From Candidatus Nanohaloarchaea archaeon (GTDB taxonomy: Archaea; Nanohalarchaeota; Nanosalinia; Nanosalinales; Nanosalinaceae), in assembly GCA_014297435.1 (NCBI GenBank), contig JACOQA010000004.1, positions 62,001 through 126,000 on the forward strand: a stretch of 64,000 nt of DNA, read 5' to 3'. A model generated the notes under the pieces. It had not been told where the DNA came from. It was given only the letters and a program-made list of their open reading frames with translations, and ran no database searches. Positions 9,000-11,289 of the stretch are shown in pieces. The translations under genes and the position numbers were made by a program. Numbering within the stretch: the stretch's first letter is position 1; each line of letters opens with the position of its first letter.

Positions 9000-9398
9000 T
9001 CAAGAGCCATCTCTAATAATGATAACTGCCAAGAAAATTGTTGATATCAGACCCAGGAAAGGTCTGAGTGGCTCTATATAAGCCAGTATAGTTGAACTGG
9101 AGAGAAGAGCTAGTAAAACTATATTACATACCGGGCATCCGAATGCAAGAAAACCTGTAACTCCTCCTAATGCAGCAAATCTTTTATCCAGTGTACTACA
9201 TTTTTCCTGCCCGAAGTATACTGCTGCAAGCACAGAAGTTGTCAAAAGAAAGAAATAATCAAGAAGAGTAATAGGAACCATTCTAACGTAGAGCGGATTT
9301 GGGATTAATCCAGTAGTTAGACCTGTAGATAGGAAAAAGACAATACCGGCAATTAAACCCGTCAAAAGATTGAATTCATCGATGATTTCTAGATCCAT
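9000..9398 (-). CDS. membrane protein with intramembrane CPVC motif (redox island)
   Basis: This 132-residue protein has four predicted membrane segments (about 12-28, 43-62, 76-100 and 105-128). 'FLAFGCPVCNIVLLALL' places a CxxC pair at the start of the third segment. The same pattern, 'FIAGGCASCGVGVMSLL', occurs in the gene immediately upstream, so the two look like paralogues. They follow a DsbA-like gene, and a thiol-relay role like that of DsbB or CcdA is a reasonable inference, but I do not recognise either as DsbB, VKOR or CcdA. Spacing to the upstream gene is 10 bp. Confidence 0.75.
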   Translation of the reverse strand: MDLEIIDEFNLLTGLIAGIVFFLSTGLTTGLIPNPLYVRMVPITLLDYFFLLTTSVLAAVYFGQEKCSTLDKRFAALGGVTGFLAFGCPVCNIVLLALLSSSTILAYIEPLRPFLGLISTIFLAVIIIRDGS

Positions 9399-9943: not shown

Positions 9944-10765
9944 TCACTTCATCCACTGGTCTCTTCTCTCAAACAGCTCGTCGTGGTAATCCCAGTAACT
10001 GTCCTGCTCATGTTCGTAGACACAGTTGGCTGCCTGATGTGCCATCGGTCCGTTCGGATGTAGCTGTGGAACCGGATAGTCCTTCGAGATAAGCTTGACC
10101 TTGCCTGTATCTACATACTTGCTTTCTAGGTTGCTTGCGATATTCATCTGGTCGATAGGGGTTCTTGATGAAGCATCAATCCCCTGCCATTCCGCGCAGA
10201 ACGGACATCCGAACTCGTTGTATTCTACGACTTTTATTGAAGCATTCTCACTTCCTTTGCTTGGTTCTCCCTCTAACTCGATGCCCTCAAGACTGGTCAG
10301 ATTTCCAGGTTTGTCGCTTTCTACTTTGTTTATGGCTTGATCGAATCTTGAAAGTGGCTGTGCGCCAGTAATTTTCACGAATCCTTTTTCCCTGTTTCCT
10401 ACGAAGAATGTTGGTGTTCCGAAGCTCCCGATGTTTTGAACCGCTTTATTTCTGTCCTCTATAGCTTCCTGGTTGTCTGAGTTTTTGTAGCACTGCATAA
10501 CTTGATCTGTATCAAGCTCAAGATCGTTGGAGATTTGCGTGAAAACCTCTTCAGGGCTCTGACTATCAGCGTTGCCGCTTGAACCATCTGATTTATCTGA
10601 ACCTATGTCCGTGTTTCCCTGTGGAGAGTTAGTTCCCTGTTGGGATGAAACACTCATGGTTCCTGCTGCGAATCCCCCTAAACCGCCAAGAACTAATCCC
10701 AGTACTAGAGAGGTTATGACTGCTTGGCGCGTGGTAAATTCCAGAGTTATATCATCTTCACTCAT
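9944..10765 (-). CDS. DsbA-like thioredoxin-fold protein with circularly permuted domain
   Basis: The 273-residue product has a short acidic N-terminus and one membrane anchor (residues about 15-36), then a Gly/Ser/Gln linker, so the domain is extracytoplasmic. In ordinary DsbA (Thioredoxin_4) proteins the CxxC comes first, then the helical insert, then the cis-Pro loop. Here the helical half ('LELDTDQVMQCYKN') and the cis-Pro motif GTPTFFVG (Thr117-Pro118) come first. They are followed by 'VVEYNEFGCPFCAEWQG' (Cys187, Cys190) and the 'YWDYHDELFERRDQW' segment that normally precedes the helical half. Both halves are complete, so this is a permutation and not a decayed gene. GGTGG upstream of the ATG serves as a ribosome site. 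Likely role: thiol oxidation or isomerisation outside the membrane. Confidence 0.82.
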   Translation of the reverse strand: MSEDDITLEFTTRQAVITSLVLGLVLGGLGGFAAGTMSVSSQQGTNSPQGNTDIGSDKSDGSSGNADSQSPEEVFTQISNDLELDTDQVMQCYKNSDNQEAIEDRNKAVQNIGSFGTPTFFVGNREKGFVKITGAQPLSRFDQAINKVESDKPGNLTSLEGIELEGEPSKGSENASIKVVEYNEFGCPFCAEWQGIDASSRTPIDQMNIASNLESKYVDTGKVKLISKDYPVPQLHPNGPMAHQAANCVYEHEQDSYWDYHDELFERRDQWMK

Positions 10766-10914: not shown

Positions 10915-11289
10915 ATGTCTAAAAACCAGGGTAGAATCCCGGTCTGGTGCAAGACAGAGGAATGGTGCGCACTCAAATCCACATCCAAGATCCTGGGTCA
11001 CAAATGGGTTCCGGCCATAATATACCACCTTCACGACAATGAAGGTCTAAGGTTCTCACAGATACAGGAAGAGGTTGGGGGAATCACCAACAAAACCTTG
11101 AGCGACAACCTCGACAGGATGCAGGACCAAGGAATAGTAAACAGAGAAGTGGAAAACGAGAAGCCGGTTAAGATAACTTATGAGTTGACTGAGTTTGGTG
11201 AAAAACTAGTACCTCTCATCGAGGAAATGATCTCATGGGGTCAGGACAACCTCAGAGAGGGCGAGAAAGAAGAAGCCTGGGTAAAATGA
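10915..11289 (+). CDS. HxlR-family transcriptional regulator, possibly thiol-sensing
   Basis: This 124-residue protein has the HxlR winged helix-turn-helix: 'GHKWVPAIIYHLHDNEGLRFSQIQ' is helix 2-3, 'ITNKTLSDNLDRMQDQGIV' the recognition helix, and the wing follows. Cys12 and Cys18 flank the N-terminus in 'VWCKTEEWC'. An N-terminal Cys is the redox switch in HypR/YodB-type members. It is divergent from the DsbA-like operon, so control of that operon by disulfide or electrophile stress is a sensible inference. A TATA-like TATTAAAG lies at 10863-10870. Confidence 0.85.
   Translation: MSKNQGRIPVWCKTEEWCALKSTSKILGHKWVPAIIYHLHDNEGLRFSQIQEEVGGITNKTLSDNLDRMQDQGIVNREVENEKPVKITYELTEFGEKLVPLIEEMISWGQDNLREGEKEEAWVK

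Follow-up and report, generated by a model that had tools for sequence, protein, structure and literature searches.

Our analysis indicates that a membrane-anchored protein encoded in the 64,000-nucleotide stretch of nanohaloarchaeal DNA studied here (the window) is a natural circular permutant of the Thioredoxin_4/DsbA-type thiol-disulfide oxidoreductases, predicted to form one DsbA-like domain (probability about 0.9). Half B of this protein, which is the C-terminal half of an ordinary DsbA, precedes half A, which is the N-terminal half of an ordinary DsbA.

Order of the two halves in the encoded protein

The gene is an intact open reading frame with an ATG start (Table 1). Pfam matched residues 72-145 to positions 122-190 of the 191 positions of DSBA and residues 166-272 to positions 4-94 of the 165 positions of Thioredoxin_4. 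Hence, the end of one profile is matched ahead of the start of the other, and the profile order is swapped. Already as encoded, the protein exceeded the curated cut-offs of both profiles (Thioredoxin_4 70.1 bits, cut-off 23.2; DSBA 39 bits, cut-off 25.6). Rejoining of the halves in the order A-B resulted in one continuous match with scores of 83.7 and 46.2 bits, respectively, and the NCBIfam profiles behaved in the same way on the native and the rejoined order. The CxxC motif (CPFC) and the GTP motif, which mark membership in the Thioredoxin_4/DsbA-like oxidoreductases, are both present. The canonical chain order, with the CxxC half before the cis-Pro half, is reversed, and the protein was therefore filed as a circularly permuted variant rather than as an ordinary member.

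In a rotation scan every circular rotation of the domain was scored with a profile built from 100 proteins of normal order, which omits most of the close nanohaloarchaeal clade. The window domain peaked at 168.9 bits when opened at residues 152-156 in the linker, versus 106.8 bits as encoded. All of the 24 distinct permuted open reading frames found in this study peaked near the B/A junction, and 5 normal-order controls had their peak at offset 0-2. The window protein consists of two complete, swapped halves that are predicted to make one domain, and its unpermuted homologues L039 and L040 are encoded at a syntenic locus. A low-complexity linker lies between the anchor and half B, and the C-terminus of the protein reads ...YWDYHDELFERRDQWMK.

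An earlier note, made from the DNA sequence, had proposed that the halves of a DsbA are swapped by circular permutation. This was borne out by the Pfam order, the rejoined scores and the rotation scan; the rotated order scored higher than the native one with Pfam, NCBIfam and in the rotation scan. The GTP motif was confirmed to precede the CPFC motif in the intact reading frame, and the membrane anchor that had been described was recovered by hydropathy. The view that both halves are complete agrees with the Pfam matches, the rotation scan, separate trees of the halves and the match to the structure 1UN2, by which they amount to exactly one domain.

The DsbA part of the gene and its orthologue in genome G010 differ by a dN of about 0.09 and a dS of about 2.5, the latter being near saturation, which indicates purifying selection. 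An assembly error was ruled out as the source of the order, since three other genomes, two of which are single-contig, encode proteins with this order (66-77% identity).

Table 1. Coordinates of the probably permuted DsbA-like gene, its parts and the adjacent gene in the window
Feature	Position	Strand	Basis
DsbA-like gene, probably circularly permuted	9944..10765	-	273 aa open reading frame; Pfam and rotation scan
N-terminal membrane anchor, residues 15-33	10667..10723	-	hydropathy; N-terminal segment 43-47% identical to L039/L040
Half B, residues ~69-149: helices and beta-beta-alpha with cis-Pro motif	10319..10561	-	DSBA profile 122-190/191; helices and strands of the model
GTP motif, residues 116-118 (cis-Pro loop position)	10412..10420	-	sequence; TP motif in 24/24 permuted proteins
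Linker, ~residues 150-158, old C-terminus to old N-terminus	10292..10318	-	rotation-scan peak 152-156
Half A, residues ~159-273: beta-alpha-beta with CPFC and first helices	9947..10291	-	Thioredoxin_4 profile 4-94/165
Active-site motif CPFC, residues 187-190	10196..10207	-	both Cys in 24/24 permuted proteins
Cys92, half B partner of presumed helical-domain disulfide	10490..10492	-	24/24 permuted proteins; aligns with C146 of Wolbachia alpha-DsbA1
Cys248, half A partner of presumed helical-domain disulfide	10022..10024	-	24/24 permuted proteins; aligns with C97 of Wolbachia alpha-DsbA1
Adjacent membrane protein, 176 aa, CxxC (C126, C129) and C174	9409..9939	-	directly downstream of permuted and normal-order DsbA genes at many Nanohalarchaeota loci

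Predicted fold, cut site and precedents

Structures were predicted with AlphaFold2 as monomers, with an alignment of 32 rows for the window protein. The alignments comprised nine permuted rows and half A fragments from normal-order proteins; half B fragments were left out because their ends were misplaced when added. Due to this make-up, the predicted packing of the halves depends on a small number of paired rows as well as on what the network had learned from ordinary DsbAs, perhaps also from 1UN2. The window model had a mean pLDDT of 79 and a pTM of 0.72, with residues 71-273 mostly near or above 90 and weaker spots at about 151-160 and 191-210. In the VIA-align ranking the top match was 1UN2, an E. 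coli DsbA that had been circularly permuted by engineering, with Z 11.3 over 169 aligned residues (68-272 of the model, rmsd 3.8); BdbD came second (Z 8.9 over 105 residues). With Foldseek, the best E-values belonged to normal-order DsbAs, each covering roughly half of the domain; 1UN2 was eighth by E-value and had the highest TM-scores among the matches listed. The model of the bacterial permutant L088 (mean pLDDT 85.7) matched 1UN2 with Z 14.4 over 164 residues, the next match having 8.4. Judged by these Z-scores to 1UN2, both predicted models have the thioredoxin fold with a helical subdomain. The structure prediction that had been proposed along with the permutation thus gave a single compact domain, for which the engineered permuted DsbA was the best match over the full domain. 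Fold comparison was the only way by which 1UN2 was retrieved: a sequence profile of the permuted proteins matched DsbA-type proteins in the PDB at E <= 0.001, with 1UN2 absent. A viral structure library gave no match at E <= 0.001.

The construct 1UN2 (CPDSBA Q100T99) is cut at T99|Q100. In E. coli DsbA numbering its start lies near Q100 and its end near T99, and its chain positions 96-194 are E. coli DsbA residues 1-99, which fits the name. In 22 out of 24 natural permutants the chain ends map to E. coli DsbA residues 97-101. The other two, L186 (1207-2079) and L187 (1432-2277), are cut near position 118, which argues for a separate permutation event. Alignment of the window family with a normal-order protein placed the break between ...QWMK and ...SPEEVF, so that little beyond the normal-order loop GGQDN was lost. 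1UN2 and the natural permutants have in common the half order B-A, termini in the same loop and the joined old termini. In contrast to the laboratory construct, the natural permutants evolved, and they carry a membrane anchor, a CPFC-type site and an extra cysteine pair.

The rearrangement would have led from a normal-order, membrane-anchored ancestor (anchor-A-B) to the order anchor-B-A, with little lost beyond the A/B loop. As a likely route, the A-B unit may have been duplicated in tandem, after which the first A and the last B would have been lost. A short linker would then join the old C- and N-termini, and the new termini would lie in the helical-subdomain loop (about 97-101 in E. coli DsbA). 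The chain is expected to fold as one DsbA-like domain in which the CPFC of half A faces the cis-Pro loop of half B; the proline of the GTP motif would be in cis. Tandem A-B arrays are plausible duplication stages. No B-A-B intermediate was found among the open reading frames surveyed; a protein of genome G002 that had been considered as one was rejected, being plain A-B.

Natural circular permutation is known in other protein families, and permuted forms of DsbA have been used in the laboratory to study how proteins fold. A series of engineered permuted DsbAs is attributed to Hennecke, Sebbel and Glockshuber 1999 in the passages of PMC12667903 and PMC3281007 that cite it. TRXL1 of UGGT is, like the window protein, a natural DsbA-like domain with rearranged order, in this case with the helical subdomain first (PMC8024514, PMC7687155). 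However, only the helical bundle is moved in TRXL1, the thioredoxin part is in order and the protein is not a redox enzyme. The window protein is not of this type, as the entire cis-Pro half also precedes the CxxC half. Within the disulfide-forming pathway, a natural circular permutation has been proposed for DsbB versus VKOR (PMC4555120), which concerns a membrane quinone reductase and not a DsbA-fold enzyme. For a natural catalytic DsbA with swapped halves no description was found in the open-access literature. The statement of the earlier note that no permuted archaeal DsbA is well described agrees with this search, but permuted DsbAs made by engineering have been familiar for a long time.

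Conserved cysteines and a candidate redox partner

The 24 permutants without exception keep the CxxC and TP motifs and two further cysteines, one per half. By alignment, their counterparts in Wolbachia alpha-DsbA1 are C97 and C146, the residue numbers being taken from the title of 3F4T. Cys92 and Cys248 may form a helical-domain disulfide that spans the new cut and holds the two swapped halves to each other. In Wolbachia alpha-DsbA1 a second, non-redox-active disulfide of the helical domain slows the reaction with alpha-DsbB (PMC3839904). Both alpha-DsbA1 and BdbD (Thioredoxin_4 PF13462 / DSBA PF01323) share two homologous halves, the CxxC, the cis-Pro motif and the helical insertion with the window protein, and alpha-DsbA1 has a helical-domain cysteine pair like the permutants. 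The order of these enzymes is A-B, whereas that of the window protein is B-A.

We infer extracytoplasmic thiol-disulfide exchange as the likely activity of the permuted DsbA, and likewise its redox activity and role in vivo. The surrounding genes point to redox work, short of proof. The stop of the permuted gene and the start of the next gene lie within 5 bases. This next gene encodes the membrane protein of 176 residues, in whose family the CxxC and a C-terminal cysteine are found in nearly all of 18 aligned rows. Searches of Pfam, NCBIfam and PDB sequences gave no convincing match for it. The permuted DsbA may be recycled via a membrane partner, possibly this protein; from its position and cysteines it might be guessed to be a new redox partner of DsbA. 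Profile searches of the genome gave no match to VKOR or DsbD_TM and one match to DsbB over the cut-off. A shorter paralogue of the 176-residue family with 132 residues and a cysteine pair of its own (C88/C91) is encoded at 9000-9398 (-) of the window.

Relatives, distribution and number of order changes

Five permuted genes were found in 4 out of 28 Nanohalarchaeota genomes. These were the window gene, two genes in G010 and one each in G009 and G012. Thus, the survey of the phylum that had been proposed revealed further members of the same order beside normal-order relatives. The nearest normal-order proteins, L039 (genome G005) and L040 (G015), are 58-61% identical to the window protein in half A and 53-56% in half B. 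They share its anchor, which by sequence is homologous to that of the window protein, and its locus, but differ by the order anchor-A-B. G009, with the permuted form, and G015, with the normal order, are given as the same genus. Common to both orders is a neighbourhood of the 176-residue membrane protein, an HxlR regulator, a YgaP-like membrane protein and further genes, not each gene being present in each genome. The HxlR-type regulator gene of the window (10915-11289, +) is divergent from the DsbA gene and is found beside normal-order and permuted genes alike.

Outside the phylum, permuted genes were detected in one archaeal genome of another phylum (G038), in at least 8 out of 379 sampled genomes of Patescibacteria, based on reading of the loci, and in at least 4 out of 400 sampled genomes of Chloroflexota. 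These counts are lower bounds owing to strict E-value cut-offs and the sampling of genomes. The permutation had been placed in archaea by the earlier note; the order does occur there, but this was too narrow, since bacteria have permutants too. Scanning of genome contigs with the single window protein as query gave no match, whereas a search of these contigs with an alignment as query succeeded and revealed additional permuted genes. Besides the permuted ones, 105 normal-order open reading frames and 30 tandem arrays were found. The arrays carry two, three, four or eight A-B units (L098:1877-6982, L117:1894-4605, L082:1213-3507 and others), with up to eight domains in one protein of 1701 residues, and belong to records of Deltaproteobacteria, Myxococcota and Chloroflexota.

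In trees of rotated domains, parsimony counted 10 order changes with 209 units (FastTree) and 9 with 74 units (IQ-TREE); many inner branches of these trees are weak and parsimony cannot separate gain from reversal, and an exact number of permutation events would be an estimate. The window clade nests with normal-order genes (support 100/94, IQ-TREE, 74 units). Half A and half B, run separately, gave the same normal-order relatives for this clade, which shows that the two halves of the window protein share one history.

Retention of the anchor by all permutants and one cut site in most of them would fit a single ancient permutation, the scatter being caused by transfer, loss or reversal and not by repeated permutation. 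The AU test also did not reject a clade of the bacterial and G038 permutants (p = 0.083) or a clade of the two Microgenomates groups (p = 0.36). It did, however, reject all 24 permutants as one clade (lnL loss 190, p = 4.6e-5), and the order of the halves has thus changed more than once. For the five Nanohalarchaeota permutants as one clade, which was named after tree inspection, p was 0.027. Together with the position of the window clade inside normal-order genes and the different cut place of two proteins, this makes a single permutation unlikely, and several independent permutations are likely. Somewhat better than even, in our estimate, are the chances of a wider view, in which DsbA was permuted many times independently (9-10 order changes by parsimony). 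On this view the cut would mostly lie in the one helical-domain loop that was also opened in the engineered permutant of known crystal structure, perhaps since a disulfide already linking the halves lends stability to the cut domain, and the Nanohalarchaeota would have the two orders as alternatives at a single locus.

Other alternatives concern the protein itself. Half B of one chain might pack with half A of another, resulting in a domain-swapped dimer or oligomer at the membrane. The B/A linker of only about 10 residues would be in line with such an exchange, and several DsbA relatives oligomerise, but AlphaFold2, by which only monomers were predicted, closes the monomer for two distant permutants that both match 1UN2 nearly over the whole domain, and we consider the exchange quite improbable. 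It is hardly credible that the gene arose when remnants of two broken DsbA genes were fused, or as a chimera between paralogues. A 5'-truncated joined to a 3'-truncated copy would give B then A, which is also a usual route of permutation; yet the halves are complete, make exactly one domain together and have their normal-order relatives in common, purifying selection acts on the product, and joining truncated copies of one gene is permutation by another name. A folded but redox-dead domain that only binds has a counterpart in the rearranged, non-catalytic DsbA-like domain of eukaryotic UGGT (PMC7687155). It appears improbable in view of the CxxC in every permutant and of a neighbouring membrane protein with a conserved CxxC.

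A natural circular permutant of DsbA means that permuted and unpermuted versions of one enzyme occur naturally at one locus in related genomes, with a natural cut nearly equal to that of a crystallised construct. It thereby becomes possible to test directly how the permutation evolved, what it costs in folding and what part the helical-domain disulfide plays. Order-dependent annotation reads permuted DsbAs as two partial domains, which should be taken as a warning. Among the nanohaloarchaeal DsbA-like proteins several carry a C2H2-like zinc finger before the anchor (L036:13616-14548, L041:5060-5977, L044:5769-6698, L042:7124-8107 and L046:5160-6146).
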